DNA from: Gemmatimonadales bacterium | Lineage (GTDB): Bacteria > Gemmatimonadota > Gemmatimonadetes > Longimicrobiales > Gaopeijiaceae | Length of the DNA: 60,743 nucleotides | Assembly: GCA_007692665.1 (NCBI GenBank) | Contig: REBP01000090.1 | Coordinates: 1 to 60,743 of the forward strand | Direction of reading: 5' to 3' | Shown here: positions 3,259-52,049 of the stretch, in pieces | How the letters are laid out: each line of letters starts with the position of its first letter | How positions within the stretch are numbered: position 1 is the stretch's first letter | Notes under the pieces: model-generated | The model's input: only the letters and a program-made list of their open reading frames with translations | What the model was told of the DNA's origin: nothing | The model's database searches: none | Made by a program: the position numbers and the translations under genes

Positions 3259-3259
3259 G

Positions 3260-3330
3260 AGGCGCCGGTCGGAGTCGAACCGACGATCGAGGATTTGCAG
3301 TCCTCTGCCTTACCACTTGGCTACGGCGCC
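3260..3330 (-). tRNA. tRNA-Cys (anticodon GCA)
   Basis: Read on the minus strand the 71-base sequence folds as a cloverleaf: acceptor stem GGCGCCG with CGGCGCC, anticodon stem GAGGA/TCCTC enclosing CTGCAAA, and T-arm GTCGG-TTCGACT-CCGAC. The anticodon GCA is at 3296-3298. Base 73 is U, usual for tRNA-Cys. CCA is not encoded. Confidence 0.96.
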
Positions 3331-3386
3331 GAACGGAAAAGGGAAGGCCCCGACGCCCCAGGGCCGGGCCTCCCCTTGTCCGGGAG

Positions 3387-3459
<73 letters not shown>

Positions 3460-37124: not shown

Positions 37125-38837
37125 TCAGATGCTGATGGTGTCCTGGGCCCGCTTGTTCCTGATGTAGAACAGGTACAGGGTCCGGGTCACGAACAGGGCG
37201 GTGAAGAAGGAGGCGATGATCCCGATGGTCAGCGTCACGGCGAACCCGCGAACGGGGCCGGTGCCGAACTGGAAGAGAATCAGCGCGGTAATGAGGGTCG
37301 TGAGGTTGGCGTCGACGATGGCCGAGAGGGCGTTTCCGAACCCCTCGTCCACCGCCGTGCGAACCGCTCGACCGGCATCCACCTCTTCACGGATGCGTTC
37401 GAAGATCAGGACATTGGCATCCACCGCCATCCCGATGGAAAGGATGAGGCCCGCGATCCCCGGAACCGTGAGGGTCGCCCCGATGGCGGCGAGCCCCCCC
37501 ATGACCAGGATCACGTACACGGTGAGCGCCACCACCGCCAGCACACCGGACATCCGGTAGTAGGCGATCATGATGAGGACGACCAGGAGGAGCCCGATGA
37601 TCCCGGCGATCTGCCCCTGGTCGATGGAATCCTGCCCCAGCGACGGACCCACCGTACGCTCCTCCATGATGCGAAGGGGCGCGGGAAGCGCACCGGCCCG
37701 GAGGACCATGGCAAGGTCGCGGGCTTCGTCCATGGCCGCGCCGCCGAGCTCGATCTGGCCCCGCTGGCGGATCTCGCCCCGGACCACCGGAGCGCTGACC
37801 ACGTCGTTGTCCAGCACGATGGCGATGCGTTCGCCGATGTTGGCCCCGGTGGTACGGCCGAAGTTGCGTCCGCCGGCGCGGGAGAGGCCGAAGGTCACGA
37901 CGGGCTGGTTCGTCTGCTGGTCGCGAATGGCCTGCGCCGTCTCGAGTTCGTCACCGGCAAGGAAAGCCTCGCCTTCGAGCAGGAACAGCTCGCGGTAGGT
38001 CCGACCTCCGAGCGCCGTCGGCTGCCAGCCGAAGTGCAGGGAAAGGGAGTTCAGCCGCCCTCGCGGCAGCACGCCCCGAACCTCCGGCATCTGCAGGAAC
38101 ATGCGGGCCACCGGGTAGTCCTCCGTGGACACCAGGAAGGCGCCGTCCCCGCCGGAGAGGAGGAGCGAGGTGAAGGGACGCAGCGTCCGCTCGTCATCGC
38201 TCAGTTCGGCTTCCGGATCCTCGGCCTCTTCCGCCACGACGGGCGGGTCCTGCTGGAGGATCGGGTCCGGCGAGGGGTCCGCGGCCGGGTCAGGTGCGGC
38301 GCCCGGGGGGGTATCGGCGGGGGCTCCGCCTCCGAAGATCAGGTCCTCGACACCGCCATCCGGCGCCGTCTGGGCCCGCCCGAGTGCGCGGAGCGAATCG
38401 ACCCCAAGGGCCACGACAATGGCTCGGTCGATCCGAGCCAGGTAGGGCTCGACCTGGCTCAGGGGGCGGACCAGCCTGAACTCGAGGAGCGCCGTGGTTC
38501 CGACGATCTCCTTGGCCCGTTCCTCGTCGGTGACACCGGCGAGCTCCACGATGAGCCGGTCCTGACCGACCTTCTGGATCAGCGGCTCCTCGACGCCGAG
38601 CTCATCGACCCGGTTCCGGAGCACCCGCTCGGACTGGCTGATGAGGTCGGACTTGACGTCCATCGGGATGAGGTTTTCCGGATCGTCGATTTCGAGGACA
38701 AGGTGCATGCCCCCCTGGAGATCGAGCCCCAGCTTGATCGGTGAGCCGGTCGCCTCGTAGTTCTGGTACAGGTACCAGCCGGAGGCGAGGACCACGGCCA
38801 GGATCACGAAGATCCGTGCGCGAATGGACTTGAACAT
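37125..38837 (-). CDS. secD: Protein translocase subunit SecD
   Basis: A membrane protein of 570 residues with a first helix (about 8-25), LGLDLQGGMHLVLEID (periplasmic P1 start), a large periplasmic domain, and six membrane helices including GMAVDANVLIFERIREE. A Pro/Asp/Ala-rich insert at about 165-205 enlarges the periplasmic domain. SecD precedes SecF as usual. yajC is not upstream. Confidence 0.97.
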   Translation of the reverse strand: MFKSIRARIFVILAVVLASGWYLYQNYEATGSPIKLGLDLQGGMHLVLEIDDPENLIPMDVKSDLISQSERVLRNRVDELGVEEPLIQKVGQDRLIVELAGVTDEERAKEIVGTTALLEFRLVRPLSQVEPYLARIDRAIVVALGVDSLRALGRAQTAPDGGVEDLIFGGGAPADTPPGAAPDPAADPSPDPILQQDPPVVAEEAEDPEAELSDDERTLRPFTSLLLSGGDGAFLVSTEDYPVARMFLQMPEVRGVLPRGRLNSLSLHFGWQPTALGGRTYRELFLLEGEAFLAGDELETAQAIRDQQTNQPVVTFGLSRAGGRNFGRTTGANIGERIAIVLDNDVVSAPVVRGEIRQRGQIELGGAAMDEARDLAMVLRAGALPAPLRIMEERTVGPSLGQDSIDQGQIAGIIGLLLVVLIMIAYYRMSGVLAVVALTVYVILVMGGLAAIGATLTVPGIAGLILSIGMAVDANVLIFERIREEVDAGRAVRTAVDEGFGNALSAIVDANLTTLITALILFQFGTGPVRGFAVTLTIGIIASFFTALFVTRTLYLFYIRNKRAQDTISI

Positions 38838-38986: not shown

Positions 38987-41080
38987 TCAGAGCGCGGAGC
39001 GGCGCAGGATTGCCCGGACCCGGGCCAGGAAGCGGTTGGCCTGCATCTCCTTCGTGAGGTAGTCGTCCGCACCCGCCTCCAGAATCTCGGCCTCGGCTTC
39101 CTCCCCCTCCTTCCCCGTACGGACCAGGACGGGGATGGCCATGGTGTCCACCGCTCCACGGATCCACCGCAGGAGTTCCCTGCCGTCCATGCGGGGCATG
39201 AGCAGGTCCAGGATGAGAAGCGACCAGTCCGGATCGTGGACGAGGATGTCCTTTGCCTTCTGTCCGTCCTCCACGGTTCGCACCTCGTAGCCCTCTGCCT
39301 GGAGGAGCGTGGACATCATGAGCCGGGCCTCCTCCTCGTCGTCGACGATGAGGATCCGGGGCGGGCCCTTCCGCTCCTCGGCTTCCTCGTGGTCCTGCAT
39401 CTGCCCGATGACGCGCTCCACTTCCACCAGCGTGGTTCGTCCCTGGGTGACCCAGTTCACCGCCACGTCCTTCAGGGTCCGCATGCCACCCTGGATTGCG
39501 AGACGCTGCAGCGTGGCATGCCCCTTCCGGAGCTCGATGGCTTCCTGGATCCGGGCGTCGAAGATCATGACTTCCTGGACCGGCAGGCGCCCCCGGTACC
39601 CCGTGAAGCCGCACTCCGAGCACCCGACGGCGCGCACCACCGGATCGGTCTCGTAGGCCTTCCGGAGCCGTTCCTCCTCCTCCGTGAAGCTCCCGCGAAC
39701 CGGCTCCGCGCACGCCGGGCATACCTGCCGGAGAAGACGCTGCGCCAGGGCACCGCGGAGCGCCGAGGCCACCGTGGAATGCTGGAGCCCCAGGTCCGCC
39801 AGCCGCGCCACGGCCGATACCGCGTCGTTGGCGTGAACCGTGGCGAGGACCAGGTGCCCGGTGAGCGCGGCCTGTGCCGCCGTCTCCGCCGTTTCCTTGT
39901 CGCGGATCTCTCCCACCAGGATGATGTCCGGGTCCTGACGGAGAATCGCCCGGAGCGCCGACGCGAAGGTCATCCCCTGCTTCTTCTCGACCTGGGTCTG
40001 GGTGATGGCCGGCAGGTCGTACTCCACCGGGTCCTCCACGGTCATGATGTTGACCTTGCCGTCCGCCAGTTCCCGGAGCGCACCGTAGAGCGTCGTGGTC
40101 TTCCCCGAGCCGGTGGGGCCGGTGACGAGGACAACGCCCTCGCGGTGCCGGAGGAGTTCCCTGAACCGCTTCAGCTCGTATTCAGGGATGTGGAGATCCT
40201 CGAGGGTCTGGTTCTGGGTCGAGTCGAGGATCCGGATGACGCACTTCTCCGCCCCCCCTGCCGGGAGCGTGGAGATGCGGAGATCGTAGGCCTGGCCGCG
40301 CACGCGGACCCGGGCCTTCCCGTCCTGCGGGCGCAGCCGGTCGGTGATGTCCAGCTTGCCCGTGATCTTGATCCGGGAGATGACCCGGTTCATGGCGATC
40401 ATGGGGAGTTCCATGTGGGAGCGGAGCACGCCGTCCACGCGGATCCGCACCTTCCCCTTCTCCCGGCCGGGCTCGATGTGGATGTCCGAGGCTCCCGCCT
40501 CGATGGCCTCCCGGATGATCAGGTTCGTCACCTGGATCACCGGTCCCGATTCCGCGTCCTCCTCCGAAACCGAATCGGGCCCCTGATCCTCCAGAAAGTC
40601 GACCTCCTCCTGCTGGCGGTTGCTTCCGGCGGTCAGGCCCTCGAGGAGGGATTCCAGCGCCGAGTCGTTCGCGAAGCCCCCGTCCAGGGCACTGCGAATC
40701 TCGCCCGGGGATGCCACCTGGAAGACCACGGATCGCCCGGAGGCAAACGCCAGCGACCGTTCCGCATCCAGGTCGGTGGGATCGCAGGTGGCCACCGTGA
40801 GCTGACGGTCGGTCTGGGCGACGGGGAAGATGTGGAACTTCCGCGCCACCGTTTCCGGAACGCTTTCTGCCGCGGCGCGATCGGCGGCGCCCAGGTCGGC
40901 CACCTCGAGGCGGAAGTGTCCCGCCACGATGGTCGCCAGCTGCCGGTCGTTGATGCCCAGGGACTTCGTGACCTTGCTCCACGCATCGCGCACCGAGGTC
41001 GACGGGGCGATCGCCGGTCGGTCGGCGGCCTGCACGCCGGCGCGCTCCGCTACCCTGAAAAGCCAGTGGGCCGAACTCAC
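38987..41080 (-). CDS. GspE/PilB-type secretion ATPase fused to a response-regulator receiver domain
   Basis: A 697-residue fusion. Residues 30-150 form a MshEN-like N-domain. The ATPase follows, with SDIHIEP (198-204), Walker A GPTGSGKT (321-328), Walker B IILVGEIRD (386-394) and the zinc-site cysteines C454, C457, C487 and C490. A linker leads to a complete CheY-like receiver domain (about 575-695) with acidic pair D580/D581, phospho-acceptor D625 in LILDLLMP, T655 and K677. It would power type IV pilus or type II secretion assembly, with phosphorylation control added. GTG 41080 follows AGGAG; an open extension to 41188 is less likely. No other pilus genes are nearby. Confidence 0.9.
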   Translation of the reverse strand: MSSAHWLFRVAERAGVQAADRPAIAPSTSVRDAWSKVTKSLGINDRQLATIVAGHFRLEVADLGAADRAAAESVPETVARKFHIFPVAQTDRQLTVATCDPTDLDAERSLAFASGRSVVFQVASPGEIRSALDGGFANDSALESLLEGLTAGSNRQQEEVDFLEDQGPDSVSEEDAESGPVIQVTNLIIREAIEAGASDIHIEPGREKGKVRIRVDGVLRSHMELPMIAMNRVISRIKITGKLDITDRLRPQDGKARVRVRGQAYDLRISTLPAGGAEKCVIRILDSTQNQTLEDLHIPEYELKRFRELLRHREGVVLVTGPTGSGKTTTLYGALRELADGKVNIMTVEDPVEYDLPAITQTQVEKKQGMTFASALRAILRQDPDIILVGEIRDKETAETAAQAALTGHLVLATVHANDAVSAVARLADLGLQHSTVASALRGALAQRLLRQVCPACAEPVRGSFTEEEERLRKAYETDPVVRAVGCSECGFTGYRGRLPVQEVMIFDARIQEAIELRKGHATLQRLAIQGGMRTLKDVAVNWVTQGRTTLVEVERVIGQMQDHEEAEERKGPPRILIVDDEEEARLMMSTLLQAEGYEVRTVEDGQKAKDILVHDPDWSLLILDLLMPRMDGRELLRWIRGAVDTMAIPVLVRTGKEGEEAEAEILEAGADDYLTKEMQANRFLARVRAILRRSAL

Positions 41081-41209
41081 ATCACTCTCCTCGCTACTGC
41101 CGAAAAACGTCGGGAAACTCGGGACCGTGCCCGGCTGGATGCCGGGGACCCCTTTCGCCGGCAAAGCTAACGGGGCGCCTGAGGCCACGGGAGGGCAGGC
41201 CCCCGGAGG

Positions 41210-42322
41210 TCACCGGACCATGAGGTGCCGGGCGGCCTCGCGGCCCAGGGGGGTGAGGTCCAGGCGCCCGTCTCCACTCCGGGTCAGGAGCCCCTCCCGC
41301 TCGGCATGTCGCGCCACCCGCAGCGCAAAGTCGTCGGACCACCGCAGGTGTTCGGGGAGGTGACCCAGGCGGTTTTCCTCCGGGGCACGTGGCGTGCCTT
41401 CGTGGTTCAGCAGGTGGATCGAGAGCATGAGCCCCGCGAACTCCACGCGCTGCCTCCGCCGGACGACGAGCCGTGCCAGCACGCCCCGGTCCGGCGCGAG
41501 GAGAAGAGCCCCCGTGAAGAGGACGCCGGTGGCCACGGCCATGCACCCGGCAATGGAGGCGTCGAGCCAGAGCGCGACCTGGAACCCGAGGAGCGCCGAC
41601 GCGGCCGCGAAGACCGCCGACAGCAGGAGGAGGAGGGGGAGCCGGTGCGTGAGGAGTCGGGCCGCGGCGGGCGGCGCGATCATCAGCGCCACCACCAGGA
41701 TCGAGCCCACCGCGTCGAAGGCCCCCACGGCGGTGACGGACACCGTCGACATGAAGGCGTACTGGACCACGGCCGGGGAGAACCCGAGGGCCGCCGAGAG
41801 GCCCCGGTCGAAGGTGGACAGCTTGAGCTCCTTGTAGAAGAGCCCCAGGAATGCCGCGTTCAGGAGGAGAATCGCGCCCATGACCCAGAGCGTCTTCGGT
41901 CCCAGGTCGACCCCGTTCCAGCTGAAGCGCCGGAGGGGGGCGAAGGCGAGCTCCCCCAGGAGAACGGCATCCACGTCGAGGTGAACATCGCCGGCGTGCC
42001 GGGCGATGAGGAGGACGGCCACCGAGAAGAGCGCCGGGAAGACGAGGGCAATGGCGGCGTCCTCCTTGACCCGCCGCGTCGCGTGAAGGGCCTCCACGAG
42101 GGCCACCGTCACGACGCCGGTGACCGCGGCTGCGAGGATCAGGACCGGGGAGGCCAGGTCCCGGACCCAGAAGAAGGCCAGCACGATCCCGAGGAGGATG
42201 GAGTGGGAGATGGCATCGGAGAGGAGGGCCATGCGGCGCAGCACGAGGAAGCACCCCGGGAGCGCGCACGCGACCGCCACCACGACGGCCATGATCTGGA
42301 CTTCCAGGTCCATGGCCGTCAT
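41210..42322 (-). CDS. Metal ABC transporter permease with C-terminal winged-helix-like extension (second permease)
   Basis: A 370-residue protein. Residues 1-285 are an ABC-3 family permease (eight or nine helices, MALLSDAISHSILLG, ELKLSTFD) of the ZnuB/MntB/TroC/TroD type. Residues about 292-370 are an added domain with helix-turn-helix and wing character: WSDDFALRVARHAEREGLLTRS then GRLDLTPLGREAARH, like the DNA-binding half of iron-dependent repressors. It overlaps the other permease gene (ATGA) and ends the operon. The permease assignment is firm; DNA binding by the tail is inferred. Confidence 0.88.
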   Translation of the reverse strand: MTAMDLEVQIMAVVVAVACALPGCFLVLRRMALLSDAISHSILLGIVLAFFWVRDLASPVLILAAAVTGVVTVALVEALHATRRVKEDAAIALVFPALFSVAVLLIARHAGDVHLDVDAVLLGELAFAPLRRFSWNGVDLGPKTLWVMGAILLLNAAFLGLFYKELKLSTFDRGLSAALGFSPAVVQYAFMSTVSVTAVGAFDAVGSILVVALMIAPPAAARLLTHRLPLLLLLSAVFAAASALLGFQVALWLDASIAGCMAVATGVLFTGALLLAPDRGVLARLVVRRRQRVEFAGLMLSIHLLNHEGTPRAPEENRLGHLPEHLRWSDDFALRVARHAEREGLLTRSGDGRLDLTPLGREAARHLMVR

Positions 42323-49548: not shown

Positions 49549-49631
49549 ACGATAGGACTCGTTGTCCCACCTTCGCCCCGGTCTGGCGCCCTTCGGCCCT
49601 GCCGGTCGGCGAGGTGCAGCGGCGGACGGGT

Positions 49632-50819
49632 TCAGGGGTCCGAACCCACCAGCACCTCGACGCGGGACGCGGACTCGAGGGCCCGGGCCCGGGCCTCGGC
49701 TACCGTGCCTCCGCGGGCCAGCGTGATCCCCATCCTCCGGAACGGCCACGCCCGGGGCTTGCCGAAGATGCGCAGCTGGGCCGTCTCCACCTCGAGGGCG
49801 CGGTCCACCCCGTCGTACCCGCGCACGGGACCCTCCCGGTCCGCCAGGATCACCGCCGAGGCCGAGGGGCCCGCATAGGACAGGACCGGGATCGGGATGC
49901 CGAGGATCGCACGGACGTGGAGGTCGAACTGCGACAGGTCCTGGGAAATCATCGTGACCATCCCGGTGTCGTGGGGCCGGGGCGAGAGTTCGGAGAAGAC
50001 CACGTCGTCGTCGGTGATGAAGAACTCCACGCCGAAGACTCCGGCACCGCCCAGTCGGGCCGTCACGGCCCGGGCCATCTTCTCGGCCGTGCGCACCACT
50101 TCCGGATCGAGTCCGGCCGGCATCCAGGATTCCCGGTAGTCCCCCTGTTCCTGCCGGTGGCCGATGGGCTCGACGAACCGGGTGGTGCCGTCCCGTTCCC
50201 GGATCGTGAGCAGCGTGATCTCGGTGTGAAACGGGATGAACTCCTCCACGATCACGCGGGACTGATCGCCCCTGCGACCCTCGAGGGCGGCGTTCCACGC
50301 CGCCTCCACCTTCGTGGATCCGGTGACAACCGTCTGCCCCTTCCCGGAGGACGACATGACCGGCTTGACCACGCAGGGATACCCGATGGCGTCACAGGCG
50401 GCGAGGAGTCCGTCCGGATCGTCGGCGAAGGCAAAGCCGGCGGTCCTGAGGCCCAGTTCACCGGCAGCCAGTTCCCGTATGGCCTGCCGGTCCATCGTCA
50501 TCCAGGTGGCCTCGGCGGTGGGAACCACGTTGAACCCCTCGGCCTCCAGTTCCCGGAGCTTCTCGGTTCGGATGGCCTCCACCTCCGGGACGATGAAATC
50601 CGGGGCATGCCGGCGGACCACCTCCTCGAGCGCGTCTCCGTCCAGCATGGGGAACACCTCGGAGGCATGGGCCACCTGCATGGCAGGAGCACCGGCATAG
50701 CGGTCCGCCGCGATGACACGAACCCCCATCCGCTGGGCGGCAATGGCGACCTCCTTGCCCAGTTCGCCGGAGCCGAGCAGGAGGAGCGTTCGGGGAAGCT
50801 GGGGCGTGGGGGCGGCCAT
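49632..50819 (-). CDS. purT: Formate-dependent phosphoribosylglycinamide formyltransferase
   Basis: Makes formyl-GAR in purine synthesis from formate and ATP without folate. The 395-residue ATP-grasp protein has LLLGSGELGKEVAIAAQR at the N-terminus, VVKPVMSSSGKGQ in the ATP site, and EFFITDDDVVFSELSPRPHDTGMVTM. The length matches PurT (392 in E. coli). The ATG at 50819 is supported by homology. It is divergent from murB and appears to be transcribed alone. Confidence 0.96.
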   Translation of the reverse strand: MAAPTPQLPRTLLLLGSGELGKEVAIAAQRMGVRVIAADRYAGAPAMQVAHASEVFPMLDGDALEEVVRRHAPDFIVPEVEAIRTEKLRELEAEGFNVVPTAEATWMTMDRQAIRELAAGELGLRTAGFAFADDPDGLLAACDAIGYPCVVKPVMSSSGKGQTVVTGSTKVEAAWNAALEGRRGDQSRVIVEEFIPFHTEITLLTIRERDGTTRFVEPIGHRQEQGDYRESWMPAGLDPEVVRTAEKMARAVTARLGGAGVFGVEFFITDDDVVFSELSPRPHDTGMVTMISQDLSQFDLHVRAILGIPIPVLSYAGPSASAVILADREGPVRGYDGVDRALEVETAQLRIFGKPRAWPFRRMGITLARGGTVAEARARALESASRVEVLVGSDP

Positions 50820-51062
50820 GGGATCGTCCTTGACGGGGGCTGGGGGCTCGGGCCGGGGCTCACGGGTCGCCCCCGGTGCCCTCGCGATGGAACCTCCGGA
50901 AGGTACAGGGTGTCAGCCCCCGGGGAAATCGGGTATCTTCGCGGCGCCCCGGCCGCGCGCTCCCCCTCGGTCGCCGCGGGGCGGGGGTCCCGGTCCTGCC
51001 GCTGTCCGGACGCCCGTGTCCACCCGGTCCCTCGCCGTCCTTCCACTGCAGATGACGCCCTC
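50820..51062. other. 243-base divergent gap, purT/murB
   Basis: The gap contains TATCTT on the plus strand at 50934-50939, a likely murB -10 with a poor TGTCAG -35 17 bases upstream. On the minus strand CTGACA (complement near 50912-50917) may be a -35 for purT, but no good -10 follows. The rest is GC-rich without recognisable structure. Confidence 0.35.
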
Positions 51063-52049
51063 TTGACCGAACGCGATCCTCTCCCTGCCACGTCATCCGA
51101 TTCCTTCGACGCCGACGGCTTCCACGCCCGGCTGGGCCCGCTCCTGGGGGGGCTCCGGATTCGCCGCAGCCACCCCCTGGCACGGCTCACGACGTTCCGC
51201 ATCGGGGGGCCCGCGGACCTGTTCGTCGAAGCACGGACCCCGGAAGAACTGGCCCGAACCGTGACGGCTGCACGGGAACTCGGCACCCCGTACTTCCTTC
51301 TCGGGGAGGGCGCGAACATCCTGGTCAGCGACGAGGGCATCCGCGGCCTGGTCATCCACTCGAAAGCCGACGGCATCGAGTTCCTCCCCGGCGGCAGGGT
51401 CCGGGCCGCCGCAGGCGTCCGGGTCTTCCCCGACCTCATCGTCGAGACGGTGCGACGGGGGCTCGGCGGGCTCCACCACTTCGTGGGGATTCCCTCGTCG
51501 GTGGGGGGCGCGCTCTGGCAGAACCTCCACTTCCTCTCCCCCGCGCCGGAGCGGGACCGCACGGTCTTCATCGAGGAGGTCCTCGAGTCGGCCGAGATCC
51601 TGACGGTGGAAGGCGAACACCGGACCGTGGGGGTCGAGTACTTCGAATTCGGGTACGACGACTCCATCCTCCACCGCCGCCCCGATGTCGTCCTCTCGGC
51701 CACCTTCCGCCTCGAGCCCACGCCCGAGGCCGAGCTCCGCCGCGTGATGACCGAAAACCTCCGGTGGCGGGACGACCGGCATCCGGACCTGTGGCTCTAC
51801 CCCTCCGCAGGGTCGATCTTCCAGAAGATCGAGGGGATCGGGGCCGGACGCCTCATCGACCAGTGCGGCCTGAAGGGACACGTGCACGGCGCGGCGGGAA
51901 TCTTCCACCGCCATGCGAACATCATCGTGAACCTGGGGGGCGCCACCGCGGCGGAGGTCCTCCACCTCATCCACCTGGCGCGGGACACCGTGTTCCGGGA
52001 GACGGGCCACGAACTCGTTCCCGAAATCGGGCTCATCGGCGAGTTCTGA
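51063..52049 (+). CDS. murB: UDP-N-acetylenolpyruvoylglucosamine reductase
   Basis: Reduces UDP-GlcNAc-enolpyruvate to UDP-MurNAc in peptidoglycan synthesis, using FAD. The protein is about 328 residues from TTG 51063. It shows TTFRIGGPADLFVEA, the FAD region LGEGANILVSDEGIRGLVI, GIPSSVGGALWQN (an unusual version of the GIPGTVGGA block), the catalytic Ser in YPSAGSIFQK and the C-terminal Glu in VPEIGLIG. No ATG or GTG precedes the core, and the TTG has no good ribosome-binding site, so the start is uncertain by some 15 residues. Confidence 0.9.
   Translation: MTERDPLPATSSDSFDADGFHARLGPLLGGLRIRRSHPLARLTTFRIGGPADLFVEARTPEELARTVTAARELGTPYFLLGEGANILVSDEGIRGLVIHSKADGIEFLPGGRVRAAAGVRVFPDLIVETVRRGLGGLHHFVGIPSSVGGALWQNLHFLSPAPERDRTVFIEEVLESAEILTVEGEHRTVGVEYFEFGYDDSILHRRPDVVLSATFRLEPTPEAELRRVMTENLRWRDDRHPDLWLYPSAGSIFQKIEGIGAGRLIDQCGLKGHVHGAAGIFHRHANIIVNLGGATAAEVLHLIHLARDTVFRETGHELVPEIGLIGEF

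Follow-up and report, generated by a model that had tools for sequence, protein, structure and literature searches.

A secretion-type ATPase of a Gemmatimonadales bacterium carries its own receiver domain at the C-terminus. Sequence comparison indicates that this fusion is real, old and kept over much of the class; because of this, and of its repeated pairing with signaling genes, direct switching of such a motor by phosphorylation is probable in these bacteria. The gene (38987–41080, minus strand) is located in the analyzed window, i.e., the whole stretch of 60,743 nucleotides (contig REBP01000090.1, assembly GCA_007692665.1), and encodes an MshEN-T2SSE-REC fusion protein of 697 aa. On balance, we lean toward reading it as a signal-gated accessory motor of the GspE/PilB type, whose input has moved from c-di-GMP to Asp phosphorylation and whose platform is shared.

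The gene starts with the GTG at 41080 and its stop ends at 38987. The frame is open further, up to a GTG at 41188, which would give a form of 733 aa. The start at 41080 is preferred, since the alignments of the orthologues begin at approximately residue 38–41 of the 733-aa form and a ribosome-binding-like run, GAGGAGAG (41085–41092, minus strand), lies just 5′ of it. The source assembly consists of 258 contigs and is 95% complete.

In the 733-aa numbering, Pfam places MshEN at 94–169 (E = 2e-15), T2SSE at 211–592 (E = 4e-120) and Response_reg at 612–725 (E = 8e-25). In the 697-aa form used hereafter, and always on the minus strand, these correspond to an MshEN domain at residues 58–133 (40682–40909), a GspE/PilB-type ATPase domain at residues 175–556 (39413–40558) and a receiver (REC) domain from residue 576 to the C-terminus (38990–39355). 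The preliminary description had proposed a secretion ATPase joined to a receiver within 697 residues, which Pfam supports; the MshEN domain and the strand had been left unmentioned. The protein belongs to the T2SSE superfamily (PilT/VirB11-like), with 401 bits against the Pfam cut-off of 24.9 and with the motifs present. The ATPase domain includes the Walker A motif GPTGSGKTT (residues 321–329, 40094–40120), the Walker B region DPDIILVGEIRD with the catalytic Glu (residues 383–394, 39899–39934), intact Asp and His boxes, and a zinc-binding CxxC...CxxC formed by C454, C457, C487 and C490 (39611–39721). The receiver has the acidic pair D580/D581, the predicted phospho-acceptor D625 (codon at 39206–39208), the switch residue T655 and K677, all five at the positions listed for them in the preliminary description (D616/D617/D661/T691/K713 in the 733-aa form). 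An AlphaFold2 prediction for the window protein with one relative had a mean pLDDT of 40, which is too low to show how the REC domain packs.

The protein thus resembles PilB and GspE in its MshEN-type N-terminal domain, T2SSE core, Walker A and B motifs, Asp and His boxes and zinc cysteines. It differs from them in the additional C-terminal REC, in its placement in a separate clade, in the lack of a pil or gsp operon around it, and in its equivalog scores, which fall below the curated cut-offs for both GspE (TIGR02533, 497 bits against 630) and PilB (TIGR02538, 459 bits against 676).

Close matches to the window protein (E ≤ 1e-109) were found in 192 of the 395 sampled genomes of the phylum, and among the first 60 relatives the canonical ATPases stay outside this threshold. 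The members whose domains were checked one by one come from these searches. The fusion was read in 28 loci of clade A, the window included. Clade B consists of paralogues approximately 50% identical to the window protein, and clades C, D and E contain more distant fusions from other families of the class. The unrooted T2SSE tree has 80 rows, of which 60 carry REC. In it, the 16 canonical ATPases that have no REC, i.e., PilB, GspE and related proteins, form one clade with 100/100 support, apart from the REC-bearing ones. Outside this canonical clade all rows carry REC with four exceptions: L059 has PAS-GGDEF in place of REC, L142 runs out at a contig end, the tail of L119_3 is REC-like but degenerate, and L124 is without REC. 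This distribution fits a single old fusion event, after which REC was lost or replaced a few times, but an unrooted tree is no proof of it. In a limited look outside the phylum by plasmid tblastn, none of 608 records covered 80% of the query. The exceptional L059 protein (L059:1139-3838) joins a secretion-type ATPase to a PAS-GGDEF part that resembles a diguanylate cyclase, in which the GGDEF signature looks altered.

The loci of the family are rich in two-component genes. In clade A, a same-strand two-component neighbor is present in 20 of the 28 loci, against 20 of the 191 control genes of the same loci. In each of these 20 loci the partner is a REC-GGDEF gene directly upstream of the ATPase gene, and 8 of the 20 pairs overlap by 4 bp. 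Similarly, 13 of the 17 clade B loci have such a neighbor (control 11/101), here a gene for a hybrid kinase, an Hpt or an MshEN-REC protein, and so do all three clade E loci (control 0/16). Across the loci, the partners of the fusion are REC-GGDEF, HK-REC-REC(-Hpt) and Hpt proteins, with the HisKA, HATPase, REC, REC and Hpt domains of the neighbors confirmed by Pfam. None of the ten clade D loci has a two-component neighbor. In L107, L113 and L115 the clade D gene has a large neighbor that is weakly similar to DUF5686, and in L108 and L115 a NUDIX gene is among the neighbors; this clade seems to be tied to another gene context. A 239-aa MshEN-REC protein without the ATPase is encoded in L121 (7381-8100), where its gene is flanked by that of a hybrid kinase and that of the ATPase fusion; it may be a competitor or an adaptor.

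In the window, the gene is placed between the operon of a Znu-type metal ABC transporter, upstream, and secD, secF, tatD and mutL. The ABC-3 metal permease gene (41210–42322, minus strand) occupies the upstream position where most orthologues have the REC-GGDEF gene. No two-component gene was found beside the ATPase gene in the examined locus, and no pilus genes were found near it. The description of the gene as standing alone is consequently correct for the window's genome and a small lineage around it, and misleading for the family, with its REC-GGDEF, kinase and Hpt neighbors. The REC-GGDEF neighbor is missing from the window as well as from the four loci closest to it (L042, L043, L139 and L140), and these five form a supported clade. 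It is best read as lost in this lineage, since the sister pair of the clade (L044 and L045) has it and a full-length homologue was not found elsewhere in the window's genome. Two Hpt matches exist in that genome, both on other contigs. Among the REC-GGDEF proteins of L044, L047, L128 and other clade A loci, the pseudo-receivers are eroding, while the GGDEF motif persists for the most part, as does the RxxD inhibitory site.

The gene had also been placed directly upstream of secDF, and secD (37125–38837, minus strand), 149 bases downstream, and secF are indeed found there. A functional tie to secDF was considered and set aside, because this neighborhood is kept in most clade A loci and absent from the other clades; the link looks like one of mere position. 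Elsewhere in the window, an ORF at 49614–52049 (plus strand) encodes a protein of 811 aa whose C-terminal part, from approximately residue 535, is of the MurB type and whose first 530 residues have no Pfam match. Genes for tRNA-Cys and tRNA-Gly lie at 3259–3459 (minus strand), and Rfam detected no other family above threshold in the window.

The N-terminal domain of the fusions differs from that of several canonical PilBs of these genomes in a c-di-GMP motif. Wang et al. (2016) defined the 24-residue c-di-GMP motif of MshEN domains (RLGxx...Q) together with a relaxed form for searches (PMC5013675). The relaxed form matches neither the window protein nor any other REC-bearing ATPase of the set, with the caution of these authors that imperfect motifs may still bind c-di-GMP (PMC5013675). 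It matches three ATPases of the set without REC, including two encoded in the genome of the window, and also 5 of 11 other canonical ATPases. Because the motif is absent from the fusions and present in several canonical ATPases, it seems that the fusions gave up the usual c-di-GMP input and acquired an input through phosphorylation. Another GspE/PilB-type ATPase of the window's genome (L071:8321-10057, contig C48) has the c-di-GMP motif and a C-terminal double zinc ribbon, and its gene is followed by those of a histidine kinase and an NtrC-type regulator.

The closest solved receivers to the window REC are PleD and RpaA. Receivers of the OmpR/PhoB type pair through their alpha4-beta5-alpha5 face (PMC2586830, PMC4511772). 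On the corresponding face of the fusions, where the dimer is predicted, the alignment shows the pairs D672-R694 and D673-R687 to be nearly invariant in clades A–C. The latter is presumably the equivalent of D101-R115 of PhoB, as mapped through the RpaA alignment and general knowledge. In the same clades, E663-R683 replaces the usual Lys-Glu pair, i.e., the salt bridge is charge-reversed, and clade D is without R683. The reversed pair could prevent pairing with the ordinary regulators of the cell. A precedent for activation from the C-terminus is the EpsE-Hcp1 fusion, in which forced GspE hexamers raised the ATPase activity and still supported secretion (PMC5061722). This result makes a C-terminal domain that pairs upon phosphorylation plausible as an on-switch for the fusion.

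From these data we infer phosphorylation, an effect of it on assembly or ATPase activity, and an action on a pilus or secretion platform. The fusion would be a motor ATPase of the GspE/PilB type from a separate lineage, in which the regulatory input would have moved from c-di-GMP, the MshEN motif being lost, to Asp phosphorylation of the C-terminal REC. A histidine kinase/Hpt phosphorelay would phosphorylate D625, and the phosphorylated receivers would pair via their alpha4-beta5-alpha5 faces. This pairing would gather the subunits and favor the active hexamer, or shift the conformation. The motor would then drive pilin or endopilin assembly on the PilC/GspF platform that it has in common with an ordinary PilB or GspE, and its role would be that of an accessory, signal-gated motor.

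The distribution of platform proteins is relevant to the last step. One T2SSF protein is encoded in the window's genome; its gene belongs to a type II secretion locus of contig C196, together with GspK-, GspD- and GspE-type genes. Contig C202 ends within a canonical PilB-type gene, and the assembly may therefore lack pil genes; due to this contig break the single platform of this genome was set aside as weak on its own in favor of genomes in a single contig. Two such genomes, G005 and G231, have one T2SSF each, next to canonical pilB-/pilT-type genes and with the fusion elsewhere, against at least two extension-type ATPases, the fusion among them. Most fusion-bearing genomes have a platform protein, and its absence from 12 of the 192 genomes with a close match is not clearly different from that in the genomes without one (22/203, counted from the tables). 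The fusion, if a motor, probably shares its platform with the canonical ATPase, by analogy with TfpB and PilB of Acinetobacter (PMC11656802). In G288, a genome with hardly any platform-protein signal, a clade A ATPase fragment with an in-frame TGA (G288:C1:18141-19202) is probably a decaying copy.

The main rival to the motor is a pure signaling protein, in which phosphorelay output would use the ATPase fold as an oligomeric platform dependent on nucleotide, and pilins would no longer be moved. It ranks first among the alternatives because two proteins without Walker A keep REC and because one genome with the fusion is without a detected platform. The two proteins, L061:7641-9725 and L062:7258-9360, have the MshEN-T2SSE-REC order and are apparently ATPase-dead relatives: Walker A and other catalytic motifs are lost and the receiver is intact, with DDDTK kept. 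The genome is G174 (97% complete), which has intact fusions and no T2SSF match; in G006 (94% complete), where the degenerate form is the remaining fusion, no T2SSF was found either. The PAS-GGDEF of L059 in the place of REC, the MshEN-REC protein without the ATPase in L121, and the report of Myxococcus PilB as a signaling protein (PMC5544727) also agree with a signaling role. However, the catalytic Lys, Glu and His are kept in all but two of the REC-bearing sequences covering the region, the window protein being among those that keep them, and the zinc cysteines in nearly all; a mere scaffold would need neither. Moreover, the degenerate pair sits on very long branches of the T2SSE tree. A role in signaling alone is less likely than that of a motor, although it deserves to be kept in mind.

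It is still less likely that the receiver determines the place of the motor, e.g., the cell pole or a complex partner, instead of its ATPase activity or assembly. Two-component regulators do position pilus machinery elsewhere, as in PdeR/FimX/PilB and the Myxococcus regulators (PMC11656802, PMC3441718), but no localization partner was found adjoining the gene, and the conserved residues of the dimer face point to self-association.

It is very improbable that the receiver serves as a phosphate sink or is purely a structural tail. The quintet of REC residues was scored in 62 rows: DDDTK is found in 55, EDDTK in four and DDDTE in one, and the other two rows are gapped and have no recognized REC. 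The phospho-acceptor Asp is present in every complete homologous REC, and the homologues without it, which would have implied a structural domain according to the preliminary description, did not appear. In three comparisons dN/dS was 0.12–0.22 for REC against 0.08–0.15 for the T2SSE ATPase, i.e., purifying selection on REC resembles that on the ATPase. The receivers of the adjacent REC-GGDEF proteins serve as an internal control, since about half of them have lost the Asp and nearly all the acidic pair. Receivers that are not needed thus decay at these loci, and the conservation of the ATPase-REC is not mere inheritance from a slow-changing locus. No kinase adjoins the window gene, as expected for a sink or a tail, but this decay, together with the conservation of the switch Thr, the Lys, the Asp and the dimer face over deep divergence, argues against both. 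Direct phosphorylation of the motor, as proposed in the preliminary description, is the best-supported reading, suggested by the kept Asp, the purifying selection and the signaling neighbors of most clade A and B homologues.

An error of sequencing or assembly joining an ATPase gene to a response-regulator gene, also considered in the preliminary description, can practically be dismissed, because the junction recurs in the same frame in an independent named assembly, the Gemmatimonadetes MAG SKNW01000013.1, and in dozens of other REC-bearing T2SSE proteins from independent genomes of the class. This MAG, with 83% identity, is the nearest named relative and the single true relative in the scan of public genome contigs, where two further matches cover REC alone.

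Known two-component control of type IV pili acts through transcription, second messengers and adaptor proteins. In the available text of a 2024 review of PilB control, the word "receiver" is absent and response regulators appear as separate proteins (PMC11656802). The same text describes TfpB of Acinetobacter, a second extension ATPase beside PilB with one pilus machine for both (PMC11656802). The fusion is proposed to be similarly an added extension ATPase sharing a platform with PilB; unlike it, TfpB has no REC reported in that text, and in this comparison a score of 426 for the window protein falls short of the cut-off of 850. With the MshE-type c-di-GMP ATPases, as presented in the accessible parts of PMC5013675, the fusion has in common the N-terminal domain order and the idea of a signal-gated pilus or secretion motor, but it is without the c-di-GMP motif and its input appears to be phosphorylation. 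An association of MshEN with REC on one protein was reported in 2016, e.g., in Bd2402 of Bdellovibrio, and no T2SSE motor ATPase with a C-terminal REC is described in those parts (PMC5013675). The window REC has the same alpha4-beta5-alpha5 dimer-face positions as PleD and the OmpR/PhoB-type receivers, whereas its output is a motor ATPase, its location is C-terminal and one salt bridge is charge-reversed. EpsE-Hcp1 similarly has an association-promoting C-terminal domain and raised GspE ATPase activity (PMC5061722), but it is artificial and constitutive, and the REC of the fusion would be signal-dependent.

None of the papers searched describes a T2SSE motor that has a receiver at its C-terminus, and the domain combination may well be listed already in automated databases. 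The parts are known, and their joining into a conserved, phosphorelay-linked motor family appears to be undescribed so far. A motor of this kind, with the receiver in the same chain, would allow direct and fast control of a secretion ATPase by phosphorylation to be tested on a single purified protein. If true, it would also help to explain why extension ATPases outnumber platform proteins in these genomes. We suggest tentatively that much of one class of Gemmatimonadota has a family of pilus/secretion motor ATPases which are themselves response regulators, and that phosphorylation of the motor subunit by a phosphorelay, rather than transcription or an adaptor, may set whether a second, signal-gated motor takes over a shared pilus or secretion platform.
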